Positions 1,721 to 18,558 of a DNA stretch of 25,630 nt are shown piece after piece; position 1 is the stretch's first letter, and every line of letters begins with the position of its first letter. Source of the stretch: a bacterium. Its GTDB lineage: Bacteria; UBA9089; CG2-30-40-21; SBAY01. The position numbers and the translations under genes are program-made. The stretch spans positions 1 through 25,630 of the forward strand of contig JBFLYA010000034.1 in assembly GCA_040757115.1 (NCBI GenBank). The letters run 5' to 3'. Below the pieces are notes generated by a model, which made no database searches, had not been told where the DNA came from, and was given only the letters and a program-made list of their open reading frames with translations.

Positions 1721-3517
1721 ATGGAACTTTCGCATATCCGTAATTTTAGTATTATTGCCCATATTGACCATGGAAAATCTACCCTGGCAGATAGATTATT
1801 GGAATATACCAATACGATTGATAAGCGTCAGATGCGAGACCAGGTGTTAGACAATATGGACCTGGAACGAGAACGCGGAATTACGATTAAGGCTCATCCG
1901 GTCAGAATGGAATATACCGCCTGGGATGGAAAAACCTACACTTTGAATCTTATTGATACACCAGGACATGTTGATTTTACTTATGAAGTATCTCGAAGTC
2001 TGGCCGCAACGGAAGGAGTATTACTTTTAATCGATGCCTCTCAAGGCGTAGAAGCTCAAACATTAGCCCATACATTATTAACCAGAAGTCTAAATAAGGC
2101 GATTATTCCGGTCATTACAAAAGTAGATTTGCCAAATATTGATGTTCCTTTAGTAAAAAAACAACTTGCGGAGATTTTAAAACTAAATCCCGATAAAGCC
2201 ATTTTAGCCAGTGGCAAGGAAGGTATTGGTATTGATGAAATATTAGAATCTATTGTTGATGAGATTCCACCACCTACGGGCGATGCGAATAAATCCTTAC
2301 AGGCATTGATTTTTGATTCATGGTTTGATGTCTATCGTGGTGTCGTCGTCTATATTCGGGTATTTCAAGGACAAATAAAACCTGGAATGGAGATTAAATT
2401 AATGTCTAATGATAAGACATATCTCGTGAGTGAAGTTGGCTCATTAAAATTAGACCTGATTCCAACAGATGTCTTGAAAGCCGGGGAGGTAGGATATGTC
2501 ATTGCCGGGATAAAAAATCTTGCTGATGTCAAAATCGGGGATACCATCACCACGGTATATTTTGCGGCAAAAGAGCCTTTACCCGGATACCGTGAATTAA
2601 AACCTATGGTTTTCTGCAGTATTTATCCTGGGGTTAATTCGAGTTTCCCTGAATTACAAAATGCAGTGGAGAAATTAAGATTAAATGATGCCTCCTGGAT
2701 ATATGAGCCAGAAACCTCAACGGCATTAGGATTTGGATATAGATGTGGGTTTTTAGGATTATTACATATGGAGATAATTTCTGAACGGCTTTATCGAGAA
2801 TACGAATTAGATTTAATCTCAACCGCTCCATCAGTTCCATATCGGATTACGAAAAAAAATGATGATGTCGTAATGATTGATACCCCGATTCATTTCCCAA
2901 ATATCGCAGAAATAGCTAAGGCTGAAGAACCTTATATTAAAGCCACAGTGTTAGTTCCTAATGAATATGTTGGGGGGGTATTAAAACTTCTCCAGTTAAA
3001 ACGAGGCATCCAGAAATCATTAAATTATCTCGAAGGAAATCGAGTAATGATTATTTATGAATTGCCACTCTCGGATGTTTTGTTTGACTTTTATGATAAA
3101 TTAAAATCTGTAAGTAGAGGATATGCCTCTTTAGATTATGAATATATGGATTATCGGCAAGTCCGGTTAGTCAAGGTCGATATTTTATTAGCCAATGAAA
3201 TTGTTGATGCGTTATCTTTTTTTGTGCCACAGGAAAAGGCATATCAACGAGGTAAGGACCTGGTGCTTAAATTAAAAGAGGTTATTCCCAGACATCAGTT
3301 TGCCGTGGCGATTCAGGCGGCTATTGGTGGCAAAATCATTGCTCGTGAGACTATTCCCCATCTCGGAAAACATGTCACGGGCAAATGCTACGGCGGTGAT
3401 ATTACCCGCAAAAGAAAACTATGGGAAAAACAAAAAGAAGGGAAAAAGAAAATGAAGTCATTTGGCAGGGTAAATCTGCCTAAAGAGGCATTCCATGCCA
3501 TCCTTAAGATTGAATAG
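1721..3517 (+). CDS. lepA: Elongation factor 4 (LepA) GTPase
   Basis: This 598-residue translational GTPase of normal family length binds the ribosome; the family is implicated in back-translocation and 30S biogenesis. Visible G motifs are G1 AHIDHGKS (13-20), G2 RERGITIK, G3 DTPGH (79-83), and G4 TKVD (133-136), where NKID is usual. G5 is ASGKEGIG instead of the common SAKTGIG. Domain II, the EF-G-like domain III with GFGYRCGFLGLLHMEI, and domain V follow. The LepA-specific C-terminal domain carries CYGGDITRKRKL and KQKEGKKKMKSFG. An AAGGAAG site precedes the ATG. It stands alone between the hicAB region and a convergent gene. Confidence 0.97.
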   Translation: MELSHIRNFSIIAHIDHGKSTLADRLLEYTNTIDKRQMRDQVLDNMDLERERGITIKAHPVRMEYTAWDGKTYTLNLIDTPGHVDFTYEVSRSLAATEGVLLLIDASQGVEAQTLAHTLLTRSLNKAIIPVITKVDLPNIDVPLVKKQLAEILKLNPDKAILASGKEGIGIDEILESIVDEIPPPTGDANKSLQALIFDSWFDVYRGVVVYIRVFQGQIKPGMEIKLMSNDKTYLVSEVGSLKLDLIPTDVLKAGEVGYVIAGIKNLADVKIGDTITTVYFAAKEPLPGYRELKPMVFCSIYPGVNSSFPELQNAVEKLRLNDASWIYEPETSTALGFGYRCGFLGLLHMEIISERLYREYELDLISTAPSVPYRITKKNDDVVMIDTPIHFPNIAEIAKAEEPYIKATVLVPNEYVGGVLKLLQLKRGIQKSLNYLEGNRVMIIYELPLSDVLFDFYDKLKSVSRGYASLDYEYMDYRQVRLVKVDILLANEIVDALSFFVPQEKAYQRGKDLVLKLKEVIPRHQFAVAIQAAIGGKIIARETIPHLGKHVTGKCYGGDITRKRKLWEKQKEGKKKMKSFGRVNLPKEAFHAILKIE

Positions 3518-11721: not shown

Positions 11722-12450
11722 CTAACAGTGTTTTTTTTCAATCTCTTTAGTCAGGATAATTGCCTCCGCAATTTCCCGCATCGACTTACGCATATTCATT
11801 GATTGATGTTGAATTCTTCGATACGCCTCTTCTTCTGAAAGCCGCCGTTCTTTCATCAGAATACCTTTGGCTTTTTCTACCAGTTTTCTGGTCTCCAATT
11901 CTTCCTGAATAATTTTAGTTTTAACCATCAAATTGGCATTTTCAATAGCTACTGCAGATTGATTTGCTACAGTGGTCAGGGTATCAATTTCACTTTTGGT
12001 GAATTTATGGGGGGTGGAGGTATAACTGGTCAAAGCTCCAATTACCTTTCCTTTAACACACAAAGGAACGCAAACTAAAGAAACCAACCCTTCTTTTTTA
12101 GCCATCTCTTTATATTTATAATCTTTTTCTTTAGTTACATCAAGCACGGTTATAGGCCTATTTTCTTTAACTACCTTGCCAGCAATTCCTTCTCCTATTT
12201 TTAGATTTGGTTTTTGATTATATGCCTCATAAAACTCCTTACTAATAGAATGAGTTGCTCGGATAACTAATTCTTGCTTTTCTTCATCCAAAAGCATTAA
12301 AGAGCATATTTTGGAAGACATTACTTCTGCGGTCACAGTGGTGATAAGACGGAGGATATCCTCTAAATAAAGGTTAGAGACAATCGCCTCACTTACCTTA
12401 GAGACAGCCTTTAATCGTTTAGCATAAGATAGTTTTGATGGACTTTCCAT
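11722..12450 (-). CDS. GAF-ANTAR transcription antitermination regulator
   Basis: This 242-residue protein has an N-terminal GAF sensor domain (about 20-175: LEDILRLITTVTAEVM, GEGIAGKVVKENRPITVLDV, VCVPLCVKGKVIGAL), a short helical linker, and a C-terminal ANTAR domain (about 188-236: LVEKAKGILMKERRLSEEEAYRRIQ, then MNMRKSMREIAEAIIL). ANTAR domains bind RNA with two hexaloop hairpins and prevent termination. A matching RNA lies upstream of the glutamate synthase gene at 18467-18520. The gene follows nadE by 52 bases on the same strand and probably shares its mRNA. The final Cys codon and stop come from the terminus of the adjoining insertion sequence; the ANTAR helices themselves are complete. 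Confidence 0.92.
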   Translation of the reverse strand: MESPSKLSYAKRLKAVSKVSEAIVSNLYLEDILRLITTVTAEVMSSKICSLMLLDEEKQELVIRATHSISKEFYEAYNQKPNLKIGEGIAGKVVKENRPITVLDVTKEKDYKYKEMAKKEGLVSLVCVPLCVKGKVIGALTSYTSTPHKFTKSEIDTLTTVANQSAVAIENANLMVKTKIIQEELETRKLVEKAKGILMKERRLSEEEAYRRIQHQSMNMRKSMREIAEAIILTKEIEKKHC

Positions 12451-12502: not shown

Positions 12503-13237
12503 CTACTTCTCAAATATAGGTGGTAACATCCTTTTATGCTGGGAGGTTTCGATTAACCTCTTGACATTAGTAACAATATCCGGTTGAAAATTTAGAGGCT
12601 CACCAGACTCTAATGCTCTAAGTATTTTATCCAGATTTTCGTAGGTAATACCTAATTCCCCTTCATCTGTCTGTCCTTCCCATAATCCCGCTGTCGGCAC
12701 TCGGGTTAGAATCTCTTCTGGAATATCCAGTTCTTTAGCCAATTCTCTAACTTCTGTCTTTAACAATCCACCAATGGGCAGAATATCTACGCCACCATCC
12801 CCATATTTGGTAAAATAACCAACCATAATCTCGGATTTATTGCCGGTTCCTGCAACCAGATAGTTAAGACAATTAGCCACATAGTAAAGAGTCATCATCC
12901 TCAATCGTGGCTTGAGGTTAGCTAAAGATAGTTTATTATCTTCAGGCATACCAGCACCTTCTAATGCTCTTGTTATTGTTTGGTAGATAGCGTCTAATTC
13001 TATCCTTTTGGTTTTAATCTTCAGTCTTTGGGCTATCAATCTGGCGTGGTCTTCATCTGTGCTGGAACTGAAACAGGGCATTATTAACCCCAGAACATTA
13101 TCTCCCACAGCCTTTTTTGATAGAGTCGCTGTGACTGCCGAATCAATTCCACCACTCAATCCTACAACGATGCCTTGAGCACCTGCCTTTTCTACTTCAA
13201 TCTTAATCCATTTGCTTATTTCGTCTGATAGTATCAT
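12503..13237 (-). CDS. nadE: NH3-dependent NAD+ synthetase
   Basis: This 244-residue N-type ATP pyrophosphatase amidates deamido-NAD to NAD at the last step of NAD synthesis. The PP-loop SGGIDSA is at residues 28-34. Other family blocks are AGTGNKSEIMVGYFTKYGD, GGVDILPIGGLLKTEVRELA and VPTAGLWEGQTDEGELG. There is no N-terminal glutaminase domain, so free ammonia is the nitrogen donor, fitting a neighbourhood of ammonia-assimilation genes. AAAGGGGG precedes the ATG. The GAF-ANTAR gene follows closely. Confidence 0.95.
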   Translation of the reverse strand: MILSDEISKWIKIEVEKAGAQGIVVGLSGGIDSAVTATLSKKAVGDNVLGLIMPCFSSSTDEDHARLIAQRLKIKTKRIELDAIYQTITRALEGAGMPEDNKLSLANLKPRLRMMTLYYVANCLNYLVAGTGNKSEIMVGYFTKYGDGGVDILPIGGLLKTEVRELAKELDIPEEILTRVPTAGLWEGQTDEGELGITYENLDKILRALESGEPLNFQPDIVTNVKRLIETSQHKRMLPPIFEK

Positions 13238-14364: not shown

Positions 14365-15687
14365 TTATAGCATCGGCAAATATCTATCTATTTCATGGGA
14401 AGTAACCTGGATTCTATCATTATCCCATTCTTTCATTTTATTATGGAGGAATCTGGTAAAGATGTGTTCACCAAAGGTTTCTTTGACCAATCGGCTTTTT
14501 TCAGTCTCTTGTAAGGCTTCAAATAAATTCCCTGGCAGATGTTTTAATTTTCTATATTCGCGTTCTTCTGGTTCCATGTGGTAGAGGTTGGGTTCAACTG
14601 GTGGAGGAAGTTCGTATTTATTCTTAATCCCTTCTAATCCAGCCGCCAACATCACGGCGAAGGCAAGATATGGGTTACAGGCGGGGTCTGGACAGCGCAG
14701 TTCTGCCCGTGTGGCTTGCTCACTGCCTGGCCGATACATCGGCACACGAATAAGTGCCGTTCGATTGCGGTGAGCCCAGGAAATATAGACCGGAGCTTCA
14801 TAGCCAGGCACTAACCTTTTATAAGAATTTACCCATTGGGATAAAATAGAGCATATTTCGCGGGCATGTTTTAATTGACCAGCAATAAAAGACTTCGCTG
14901 TCACAGACAGATTATGTTCATCGTTTGGGTCAAAAAAGGCGTTCTTTGTGCCCTGAAATAAAGATTGGTGAGTATGCATGCCCGAACCATTTACCCCAAA
15001 CACGGGTTTAGGCATAAAGGTAGCATAAACACCTTCCTGCTGAGCAATCTCCTTTACCACCATCCGATAGGTCATAGTATAGTCAGCCATAGTAAGTGCA
15101 TCTTGATACCTCAAATCTATTTCATGTTGAGATGGTGCTACCTCATGATGTGAAGTCTCAACCGGGATACCCATCTCTTCTAATACCTTGACTGTCTTTT
15201 TTCTAAGTCGATTAGCCAGGTCATAAGGCACTATATCAAAATATCCACCTTCGTCTAACCCTTTTGCTTCCTTGTTAGATTTAAAATAAAAATATTCCAA
15301 TTCAGGCCCAATATAGTAGGTAAATCCTAACTCTGCGGCTTCCTTAATGACCTTTTTTAAGACATATCTTGGGTCTCCTGGATATGGGGAACCATCAGGA
15401 TTAAGAATATCACAAAACATCCTGCCAACAGGTTCTTCTACAGGTTCCCATGGTAACAACTGAAATGTTTCTGGTTCAGGTTTAGCCAGAATATCACTCT
15501 CTTCAGCCTCAGCAAATCCAGTAATCGATGACCCATCAAAACCCTTTCCGTGTTCAAATGCCGATTCAACCTCTCTATCGGTTATAGTTACACATTTAAG
15601 GAAACCAAGCACATCGGTGAACCAGAGTTGAATATTTTTGACATTCTTCTCCTTTATAATCTTTAAAACTTTATCTACCTCTTTCAT
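14365..15687 (-). CDS. glnA: Glutamine synthetase type I, copy 2
   Basis: This 440-residue paralogue of the enzyme at 5229-6554 shares all catalytic blocks: GFDGSSITGF, GPELEYFYF, HHEVAPSQHEIDLRY, NGSGMHTHQSLF, NRTALIRVP and RAELRCPDPACNPYLAFAV. It is also GSI-alpha in length. At the Bacillus feedback-inhibition site the arginine is replaced by Glu (FAEAEESD), unlike the Asp of copy 1. AAAGGAG lies ahead of the ATG. It sits between mazEF and the nucleotidyltransferase pair, 1.1 kb from the glutamate synthase gene, with which it would form the ammonia-assimilation cycle. Confidence 0.95.
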   Translation of the reverse strand: MKEVDKVLKIIKEKNVKNIQLWFTDVLGFLKCVTITDREVESAFEHGKGFDGSSITGFAEAEESDILAKPEPETFQLLPWEPVEEPVGRMFCDILNPDGSPYPGDPRYVLKKVIKEAAELGFTYYIGPELEYFYFKSNKEAKGLDEGGYFDIVPYDLANRLRKKTVKVLEEMGIPVETSHHEVAPSQHEIDLRYQDALTMADYTMTYRMVVKEIAQQEGVYATFMPKPVFGVNGSGMHTHQSLFQGTKNAFFDPNDEHNLSVTAKSFIAGQLKHAREICSILSQWVNSYKRLVPGYEAPVYISWAHRNRTALIRVPMYRPGSEQATRAELRCPDPACNPYLAFAVMLAAGLEGIKNKYELPPPVEPNLYHMEPEEREYRKLKHLPGNLFEALQETEKSRLVKETFGEHIFTRFLHNKMKEWDNDRIQVTSHEIDRYLPML

Positions 15688-15785: not shown

Positions 15786-16142
15786 TCAATCAACTTCTCG
15801 TGGCATTATAAGCAACTGGATTCCACCTAAAATTTCCTGTATGCGATTGGGTGAAAGAGTACCGATTTTTTCTACAAGATCGGATTTATCCACCGTAACA
15901 AGATGGGAAATGTTTACAACACTCTGTTTGGGAAGATTTGCCTCACCTTTTGAAAGTAAAACGTTGCCTGGTACTTTTGCCCGCTTCAAATTAGATGTCA
16001 GTGTGCAGACTACCACTGTATTTATACGACTACGATTGAATAGATTGTTCTGAATAACAACATGCGGATGCCGATAGCCAGGTGCAGAGCCGGATGGTTC
16101 ACCAAGTTCAACCCAAAAGACATCCCCTTGATTTATCACCAT
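15786..16142 (-). CDS. mazF: MazF/PemK-family endoribonuclease toxin
   Basis: This 118-residue protein has the MazF fold: QGDVFWVELGEPSGSAPGYRHP at the N-terminus with the conserved GDV-x-W and P-x-G-x-RP-like turn, then HVVIQNNLFNRSRINTVVVCTLTSN and the GNVLL and QSVVNISHLVTVDKSDL strands. Such toxins cut mRNA at short specific sites. Length is typical. It overlaps the upstream antitoxin gene by seven bases and ends about 100 bases before glnA copy 2. Confidence 0.93.
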   Translation of the reverse strand: MVINQGDVFWVELGEPSGSAPGYRHPHVVIQNNLFNRSRINTVVVCTLTSNLKRAKVPGNVLLSKGEANLPKQSVVNISHLVTVDKSDLVEKIGTLSPNRIQEILGGIQLLIMPREVD

Positions 16143-16390
16143 TGCCCCCTCACAAGTCGCTTATGCCTGGCTCGAACATTCTTTTCATATTTTCTCTCAG
16201 CTAAATCAGGTGCATCTCCATAGGCATCATTGAGTTGTTGAAGAAGTTGTTGATTCTGTTGTCGCTGGAGAAAATCCTTCACCGCCATTGCAACTAAATG
16301 ACTGCGAGATACATTCATCCTCTGTGCCAGCGATTCTATCCCTTCAAAGAGAGATTTCTGAATTGAAATTGCAGTTTTAACATTTGCCAT
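16136..16390 (-). CDS. mazE: Ribbon-helix-helix antitoxin of MazF
   Basis: An 84-residue product is predicted from the ATG at 16390, preferred over one 42 bases upstream because AGAGGA lies at suitable distance and the ribbon-helix-helix domain begins directly (ANVKTAISIQKSLFEGIESLAQRMN, then VSRSHLVAMAVKDFL). The charged C-terminal half (LAERKYEKNVRARHKRLVRGQW) would bind MazF. The promoter at 16497-16525 is about 110 bases upstream. By analogy this protein represses that promoter; no operator palindrome was recognised. Confidence 0.85.
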   Translation of the reverse strand: MANVKTAISIQKSLFEGIESLAQRMNVSRSHLVAMAVKDFLQRQQNQQLLQQLNDAYGDAPDLAERKYEKNVRARHKRLVRGQW

Positions 16391-16496
16391 TTTGTTATAT
16401 CCTCTTTCCTCCCATAAACATAACATACCCAATTGATAGGAATTGCTTTTTTAGTATTTTGGATTATTATGTCCATTTCTTGCACATTCTAACGAT

Positions 16497-16798: not shown

Positions 16799-18391
16799 CT
16801 ATCCTTCTAAAATTTTCTCTGCTTCTTCACGGTAAGCATCCATTAAATACGGAATACCGGTAACCTTAGTGCATTCTTCCGTCAACGACATCAGTTCGTC
16901 TCTGGTAATAGCATTGATATTGAAGCAGCGAGCTCCAGCCATAAGCTGTTGTAAGCCCACTTTAATCTTCTGTGAATAGCTGTAAATGCCAAGTGCGCCA
17001 AGAGGAAGTTTCTTCATCTCATCTTTGCCCAGCATATTCGTTACTTCCTCATAGCAAACGAAGATTTCATCAATGGTAGTGCCAAACTCGCTGACAGTTT
17101 TTGGCAGGTCATCTTTCTCAATCCATTCGGCGATATTCTTGCCCACCATTCCAGGAATCATCAGTGCTCTACCCATACATACGGCTTTGACAAACGGAGC
17201 ACCTAAAGCTAATGCCTTAAATACGCCATCTTCGCTGGAAAATCCACCAGCAAAAGCAATATCTGGCACTCTTTCGCCTTTATCCGCTAATTTCTTGCAA
17301 AATTCATAGGTAGCGGCATGTAAATAGAGAGATGGCATACCCCATTCTTCCATCATCCGCCAGGGACTCATACCCGTTCCACCTGGGGCACCATCAATGG
17401 TAAGCAAATCAATCTTAGCTTTGGCTCCCCACTTTATTGCCATAGCCAATTCACGCAAGCCATAGGCACCAGTTTTCAGGGTAATTCTCTTAAATCCTAT
17501 CTTGCGTAATCGTTCTACTTCAGCATAGAATTCTTCTTCTCCGATAAACCCAAGTCGGCTGTGCCGCTCAAATTCCTTAATCGCTTTATCCCTGAATGCC
17601 GCTTGAATCACCGGGTCTGATGGGTCAGGGGTAACAATGTATCCCCGTTTTTGTAATTCCTGCGCCCGTTCTAAACTCTTTACCTTGATTTCGCCACCAA
17701 TACACTTGGCACCCTGTCCCCATTTAAGCTCAATGGTCTCAAGACCATGTTTCTTATGAACATACTCAGCTACCCCCAGTCGGGTATCTTCTACATTCAT
17801 CTGAACCAATATCTCACCATAGCCTCGATGATACCGTTTATAGATTTCAATCCGTCTATCCATATCCGGTGCATTAACAATCTTCTTATTGGCATCTAAT
17901 TCCAATTGTGGGTCAATACCACAAACATTTTCTCCACAAACTAATGTTACGCCACTGATAGCGGCGCCAACCGCAAAGTGTTCCCAATTGCGACGGGCAA
18001 TTTCAGTTGAACCAAGTGCCCCTGTAAAAATAGGCACCTGCATCTTAACTTTAATATCCCATCCATATTCGGTCTCTGTATTGACTGCGGGAAAGGTAGC
18101 TGTATCCGGGTCTCCAATTACTCCCTTTGGTAATCCTTTAGCACCCAAAGCATAACCCTGAATATTGAGATGTGAATAATCAACCGGGTAGTTTTTATCA
18201 CCACCTGCAGTTATTTCACCAAACGGACCTGGATAGATAACCTCTCTGCCACGAAAGCTTGATTTAAACACCTCGCAGTTGCCTCGACAACCATCTATAC
18301 AGCGGGTACACAAGCCACTCATTGGAACTACACTTCGAGAACGATTGGAAGTTCTGGTGGCATCATTAGCATTTGGTTGTTGTAAATTCAT
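16799..18391 (-). CDS. FMN-binding glutamate synthase domain protein (GltB-like)
   Basis: This 530-residue protein corresponds to the synthase (FMN) half of glutamate synthase large subunits, as in archaeal-type stand-alone GltB. Family blocks include VPIFTGALGSTEIARRNWEH, ELKWGQGAKCIGGEIK, LLTIDGAPGGTGMSPW, AFAGGFSSEDGVFKALALGA and a C-terminal YSQKIKVGLQQLMAGAR. An N-terminal cysteine set (C28, C31, C35, C39 in CTRCIDGCRGNC) probably binds a cluster. No amidotransferase domain or GltD gene is present here, so partners must be elsewhere. It makes glutamate from 2-oxoglutarate and ammonia delivered by a glutaminase subunit. AAGGAGG precedes the ATG, and expression appears controlled by the attenuator upstream. 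Confidence 0.9.
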   Translation of the reverse strand: MNLQQPNANDATRTSNRSRSVVPMSGLCTRCIDGCRGNCEVFKSSFRGREVIYPGPFGEITAGGDKNYPVDYSHLNIQGYALGAKGLPKGVIGDPDTATFPAVNTETEYGWDIKVKMQVPIFTGALGSTEIARRNWEHFAVGAAISGVTLVCGENVCGIDPQLELDANKKIVNAPDMDRRIEIYKRYHRGYGEILVQMNVEDTRLGVAEYVHKKHGLETIELKWGQGAKCIGGEIKVKSLERAQELQKRGYIVTPDPSDPVIQAAFRDKAIKEFERHSRLGFIGEEEFYAEVERLRKIGFKRITLKTGAYGLRELAMAIKWGAKAKIDLLTIDGAPGGTGMSPWRMMEEWGMPSLYLHAATYEFCKKLADKGERVPDIAFAGGFSSEDGVFKALALGAPFVKAVCMGRALMIPGMVGKNIAEWIEKDDLPKTVSEFGTTIDEIFVCYEEVTNMLGKDEMKKLPLGALGIYSYSQKIKVGLQQLMAGARCFNINAITRDELMSLTEECTKVTGIPYLMDAYREEAEKILEG

Positions 18392-18421
18392 TTCTTAACC
18401 TCCTTGTGAGTCAACACCTTA

Positions 18422-18475
18422 TAAAAAAACAAAAAAGGTGTCCTATCTCTTGTTAATTGTTTAGTTAGACACCTT
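18422..18475 (-). terminator. Leader terminator (attenuator) of the gltB-like gene
   Basis: On the minus strand AAGGTGTC (complement of 18468-18475) pairs with GACACCTT (complement of 18435-18442) across a 25-nt loop, followed by T6-G-T7. It lies inside the leader, before the ribosome site and start codon, so it would stop transcription unless disrupted. Its 5' arm overlaps loop and 3' arm of the second hexaloop hairpin (18467-18480), making the two structures mutually exclusive. Confidence 0.85.
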
Positions 18476-18520
18476 TGTCTTTTGATTCAATAAATCTCTC
18501 TAATACGCCATTGTATCAGA
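18467..18520 (-). ncRNA. ANTAR-type two-hairpin antiterminator RNA
   Basis: Read on the minus strand, hairpin P1 is TCTGATAC-AATGGC-GTATTAGA (18520-18499): an 8-bp stem with one G-U pair around hexaloop AATGGC. After an 18-nt linker, P2 is AGAC-AAAGGT-GTCT (18480-18467), hexaloop AAAGGT on a 4-bp stem. Both loops have A at position 1 and G at position 4, the known requirement for ANTAR recognition. P1 starts within a few bases of the predicted transcription start. The G-U pair would be a C-A mismatch on the other strand, supporting minus-strand RNA. P2 blocks the terminator's 5' arm. Confidence 0.8.
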
Positions 18521-18529
18521 CTATAAAAT

Positions 18530-18558
18530 ATGATAGCATAAGATTAAAATTTTGTCAA
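18530..18558 (-). promoter_or_regulatory. Promoter of the gltB-like leader
   Basis: TTGACA (complement of 18553-18558), a 17-base spacer and TATCAT (complement of 18530-18535). Transcription would start at about 18523, immediately before hairpin P1, giving a leader of about 130 nt. Confidence 0.8.

Follow-up and report, generated by a model that had tools for sequence, protein, structure and literature searches.

What decides whether transcription passes from the leader of a glutamate synthase gene into the gene itself is the question raised by this locus. The window (the whole stretch of 25,630 nucleotides that was analysed) carries on its minus strand a stand-alone glutamate synthase gene (gltB, 16799..18391) encoding 530 aa, in which the synthase domain PF01645 is found alone and the amidotransferase domain is absent. 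The same strand encodes, some 6 kb from the leader, a predicted RNA-binding regulator of 242 aa with a GAF and an ANTAR domain (11722..12450), the sole ANTAR protein found in the genome. Comparison of sequences indicates that the gltB leader is very probably an ANTAR-type transcription attenuator under the control of this GAF-ANTAR protein, whose binding would lead to antitermination.

The glutamine synthetase gene glnA (14365..15687, minus strand) lies between the regulator and its proposed target; a scan of the window found no ANTAR-type motif in the glnA leader. The NAD synthase gene nadE (12503..13237, minus strand) is directly upstream of the ANTAR gene, with 52 bases between the two, and the same nadE-ANTAR order is seen in a relative from the phylum (G001).

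Architecture of the gltB leader

The leader elements were read base for base from the minus strand (18391-18558). The promoter, TTGACA-N17-TATCAT (18530..18558), is of the sigma-70 type and matches the consensus at 11 of 12 positions, with the -35 element TTGACA at 18558-18553, a spacer of 17 nt and the -10 element TATCAT at 18535-18530. It is kept in G001, G003, G009 and G017, and also in the degenerate leaders of G006 and G013. The first hairpin, P1 (18499..18520), has the sequence TCTGATAC-AATGGC-GTATTAGA and consists of eight pairs, one of them G-U, with AC/GT closing pairs around a hexaloop that has A in position 1 and G in position 4 (A1/G4). The second, P2 (18467..18480), is the predicted antiterminator, AGAC-AAAGGT-GTCT, with four pairs and again an A1/G4 hexaloop. 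An intrinsic terminator follows (18423..18476), in which the 5' arm AAAGGTGTC (18476-18468) pairs with the 3' arm GACACCTTT (18442-18434) and is followed by T6GT7; the Shine-Dalgarno sequence AAGGAGG (18399..18405) and the ATG (18391) complete the leader. The promoter, both hexaloop hairpins, the Shine-Dalgarno sequence and the ATG are thus all present on the minus strand as set out in the preliminary description. The terminator and its T6GT7 tract are also where that description placed them, with a stem of nine pairs as against the eight stated.

The 5' arm of the terminator is made up of the loop and the 3' arm of P2. P2 and the terminator therefore cannot coexist, since these bases are common to both; the mutually exclusive folds proposed earlier are borne out. 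In the predicted fold of an RNA that ends just past P2, the closing pair of P2 has a probability of 0.98 and that of P1 of 0.996. For the full leader, P1 with the terminator is predicted at -17.5 kcal/mol, compared with -11.1 kcal/mol for P1 with P2. As the full leader favours the terminator, the unaided leader should terminate, and P2 needs something holding it. The folding energy of the leader is -24.3 kcal/mol (z = -4.0 compared with shuffles).

The ANTAR dual-hairpin class was defined by Ramesh et al. 2012 (PMC3369931). The window leader shares with the class two hairpins of at least three pairs (eight in P1, four in P2) with hexanucleotide loops and a variable linker, A1 and G4 in both loops (AATGGC, AAAGGT), a terminator overlapping P2 and an ANTAR protein in the same genome. 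The spacing is a point against the assignment of function: the two loops are 36 nt apart and the stem-to-stem linker is 18 nt, which is longer than the 5-12 nt of the eut-type subclass. In the eut leaders of Enterococcus faecalis, a 14-nt linker drastically reduced induction (PMC3369931). The tolerance for spacing may differ for the GAF-ANTAR protein, because the loop spacing in the gltB leaders of relatives, counted by eye, ranges from 24 nt (G014) to about 47 nt (L047).

The GAF-ANTAR protein

The ANTAR domain of the regulator is recognized by PF03861 with an E value of 4.5e-21. This is the one match to the family in the 4.3-Mb genome (99.9% complete), and its score of 77.6 bits is to be compared with a cut-off of 27.3. 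Among seven compared genomes of the phylum the protein is 79-99% identical. The RNA-contacting residues described in the EutV-RNA structure paper (PMC8934654) were located by alignment to 6WSH/6WW6. Nine of the eleven are kept (R142, K143, K147, K149, E160, Y164, M172, N173 and R175), including the tyrosine that in EutV stacks on G4 (Y164) and the methionine that acts as the loop plug (M172) (PMC8934654). The other two are changed (R168Q and R177S), a point against the proposed reading.

The position of the ANTAR gene varies among relatives: it adjoins gltB in G003 and G009, is found directly before glnA in G002, and is clustered with both glnA and gltB in G017. The best family matches of the GAF domain, both below the model cut-offs, are to the EI-Ntr-type phosphotransferase PRK11061 (4.8e-17) and to NifA (3.9e-14). 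EI-Ntr and NifA have GAF domains with nitrogen sensing. By analogy with these proteins, our guess for the signal would be glutamine or 2-oxoglutarate. GAF-ANTAR proteins were still uncharacterised in 2012 (PMC3369931), and a literature search of limited extent found none characterised after that date.

Conservation and covariation of the leader

The preliminary description proposed a covariance-model scan and an alignment of leaders of orthologous genes as checks. A leader of the same kind precedes the same gene in five ANTAR-bearing relatives from the phylum (G001, G003, G009, G014 and G017) and in six genomes from outside it (L003, L004, L008, L039, L047 and L075), several of which are labelled Deltaproteobacteria, Syntrophobacteraceae or Desulfoferrobacter. 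Alignments A2 and A5 served for building the covariance models; MAFFT alignments (A1, A4), in which L039 and L047 were misaligned, were set aside. In all 12 leaders listed, position 1 is A and position 4 is G in both loops. Two-sided changes are seen in five of the seven aligned pairs of P1, while the inner two closing pairs (AC/GT) are invariant, and the covariation of P1 is greater than in all 500 shuffles and in all slid registers. Covariation is also present in the terminator.

A covariance model, R2, was built from four leaders from outside the phylum (two sites in L008, one each in L075 and L039) and searched against 19 genomes; in genome-wide searches a fast initial pass was made and its first 150 candidates were scored, so that weak further sites may have escaped. 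R2 matches the window leader with an E value of 3.9e-5, and no other scored candidate of the 4.3-Mb genome reaches E<=1. The model also recovers the gltB leaders of the five relatives from the phylum, and among the first 150 candidates scored it finds nothing in G006 or G013. A further model, R1, gave nothing better than E 1.6 against 691 kb of other gltB loci. Two further matches of R1 in the genome of the window, C228 (E 0.005) and C293 (E 0.075), were rejected as ANTAR sites, as they have neither a hexaloop in P1 nor a well-formed P2 stem; the two are near-identical terminator leaders, of which C228 precedes a serine-protease-like gene. Rfam, scanned at E<=10, yields no match at the leader; this carries little weight, as an ANTAR-target family may be absent from Rfam.

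Co-occurrence and loss of leader and regulator

An ANTAR gene is present in all of the gltB carriers that have the leader (12/12), and among the gltB carriers examined no gltB leader was seen without one. In one comparison set, each of the six genomes with the leader has a single ANTAR match and the leaderless genomes have none (0/9, L002 aside); the Fisher p value for this split is 0.0002, not corrected for relatedness. In a second set, ANTAR genes are present in 10 of the 48 genomes without the leader; an ANTAR protein evidently need not be accompanied by a gltB leader.

Two relatives appear to have lost the system. G006, from the same order, has no ANTAR match. The promoter of its gltB leader survives, P2 and the terminator are gone, and what is left of P1 is a relic, TTAATAT-AATAAA-GTATTAA, in which G4 is lost. 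G013 is identical to L002; its ANTAR gene carries a disruption in the GAF region, and only the promoter and P1 are left of its gltB operon leader, which lies 3.3 kb upstream of gltB. A search of the ANTAR-lacking relatives with the GAF-ANTAR protein gave many GAF-containing proteins, and the Pfam ANTAR model revealed no hidden ANTAR protein in f2. Both losses fit a terminator that would be passable only with an ANTAR protein. Taken with the single ANTAR gene of the genome and the co-occurrence of leader and ANTAR gene, this co-loss supports the protein encoded at 11722-12450 as the regulator of glutamate synthase, and it is very likely that the preliminary description named the correct one.

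A different glutamate synthase operon provides a point against this reading. In G004 (L160:8832-8897) and G006 (L189:732-795) hexaloops and a terminator are present in the leader of this operon, and no ANTAR gene was detected in either genome. Among these second-operon leaders, that of G004 has U-G closing pairs where others have C-G, and that of G006 has a broken P1; in G003 and G001 the homologous operon adjoins a second ANTAR gene. We take the leaders of G004 and G006 to be relics in decay, or else to respond to some unrecognised factor. The second ANTAR gene of G003 (contig C318, L162:2367-3158) lies between a hexaloop-terminator leader and a glutamate synthase-type gene, an arrangement in which it may regulate itself.

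Proposed mechanism and alternative explanations

RNA polymerase would start near 18523 and make P1, then P2. With the protein inactive, P2 would open, the more stable terminator with its U-tract would form, and transcription would stop short of the glutamate synthase gene. Once activated through its GAF domain by a signal related to nitrogen or redox state, the GAF-ANTAR protein would grip the A1/G4 hexaloops of both hairpins; with P2 held closed the terminator could not form, and glutamate synthase would be made. Binding by the GAF-ANTAR protein, antitermination as the direction of control and the nature of the signal are what we infer here. A more specific, tentative version, to which we give somewhat less than even chances, is a one-component switch in which the GAF-ANTAR protein senses glutamine or 2-oxoglutarate directly, has essentially one RNA target, and is kept or lost with it as a unit across distant lineages.

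The terminator could instead be that of an upstream transcript, or a constitutive attenuator, with hairpins that arose by chance. Short A/T-rich stems with hexaloops are indeed common alone: shuffled whole windows contain a mean of 1.9 dual hairpin pairs when no terminator is required. With the terminator the mean falls to 0.0, and the motif scanner, run on both strands of the window, returns one site, the gltB leader. Among 5000 shuffles of the leader (dinucleotide model, our own criteria), a dual A1/G4 hairpin pair occurs in 0.76%, and dual A1/G4 hairpins with an overlapping terminator in 0.04%. The arrangement is therefore not attributed to chance, since so few shuffled leaders show it in full. 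A strong promoter directly upstream of the leader is likewise at odds with such an origin, and the conservation of the structure with covariation across distant lineages, together with the R2 match, already contradicts it; this explanation is extremely improbable. An attenuator that is read by some other factor (a different RNA-binding protein, the translation of a leader peptide or a small molecule), the A1/G4 hexaloops being incidental, is also improbable, though less so than chance. It draws on the terminator-bearing leader of the second operon in G004 and G006, but would have to accommodate the invariance of A1/G4 and of the AC/GT closing pairs across the aligned leaders, the 12/12 co-occurrence with an ANTAR gene and the decay of the gltB leader where ANTAR is absent or disrupted; moreover, the leader has no room for a conserved structured aptamer besides its two hairpins.

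It is also conceivable that the ANTAR system is real and that binding promotes termination or acts on translation instead of causing antitermination. For some ANTAR RNAs the site of action is the ribosome-binding site (PMC8934654), and same-gene leaders in Acetobacterium, where no terminator was seen, have the Shine-Dalgarno sequence inside the second hexaloop. In the window, however, the overlap of P2 is with the terminator, not with the Shine-Dalgarno sequence, an arrangement shown to be antiterminating for EutV and NasR, and the loss of P2 and the terminator in relatives without ANTAR fits a terminator that needs ANTAR for passage. We regard such a mode of action as highly unlikely here, scarcely more credible than chance, and antitermination by the GAF-ANTAR protein as the preferred reading. 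The Acetobacterium leaders (L072, L073 and L074) have two A1/G4 hexaloop hairpins in the ~80 bases leading up to the match start (6001), ahead of the same glutamate synthase gene, for example gattgttttc-AATGGG-gaaaacaatc and attttc-AAGGGG-gaaaat. Compensatory changes were seen by eye in P1, and ANTAR genes are present in all three genomes; ANTAR may thus control translation at this glutamate synthase leader.

Relation to known ANTAR systems

The leader resembles the EutV-responsive eut leaders of Enterococcus faecalis (PMC3369931) in its dual A1/G4 hexaloops, AC/GT closing pairs, overlap of P2 with the terminator and genome-encoded ANTAR protein. It differs in the distance between the loops (36 nt here, 24 nt in the eut leaders by our count), in having a GAF-ANTAR protein where the eut system has a REC-ANTAR response regulator, and in its target, a nitrogen-assimilation synthase. 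The NasR-nasF leader of Klebsiella oxytoca (PMC7496416) likewise combines a one-component ANTAR sensor with a dual-hairpin leader and nitrogen-assimilation genes, but the sensor domain of NasR is NIT (nitrate), whereas that of the present protein is GAF, and the target operon is different.

The preliminary description took ANTAR control of a stand-alone synthase in such a lineage to be new. This was overstated, because predicted ANTAR elements had already been described for the glutamate synthase genes of Desulfotomaculum reducens (PMC3369931, Fig. 9A), and glutamate and glutamine synthases are among the ANTAR targets listed there (PMC3369931). As described there, the predicted D. reducens elements are of the same kind and lie at the same kind of gene, in another organism and lineage. 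Only the lineage and the pairing with a GAF-ANTAR protein can be called new. In an uncultured phylum, the locus offers an ANTAR pair with one regulator and apparently one target, together with natural losses in which the leader terminator tends to vanish together with the ANTAR protein. It would be a simple system in which to ask what signal GAF-ANTAR proteins respond to and what distance between the two hairpins is tolerated, given loop spacings of 24 to ~47 nt among leaders of this gene.

Additional observations

Several gltB leaders outside the phylum contain further hairpins. In L003 (5842-5942) and L004 (910-1010), three A1/G4 hexaloop hairpins (AATGAA, AGTGGG and AAAGGT), with spacings of 24 and 26 nt, precede the terminator of the gltB leader; a first scanner had taken the middle hairpin for P2, an assignment dropped when inspection showed three hexaloops. 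L039 (5771-5970) has a second dual-hexaloop attenuator after the first in its gltB leader, and L075 (4317-4530) a further hexaloop hairpin with a terminator after the first attenuator. The contig of L008 that carries the gltB leader has a second strong predicted ANTAR attenuator (3145-3215, minus strand) ahead of another transcript.

Within the window, a purine-rich stretch of imperfect repeats (167-260) attracts spurious microRNA-family matches. Between the glutamate synthase and glutamine synthetase genes (15786-16432, minus strand) lies a pair of small genes which, judged from the translations alone, resembles a toxin-antitoxin module of the MazE/MazF type.
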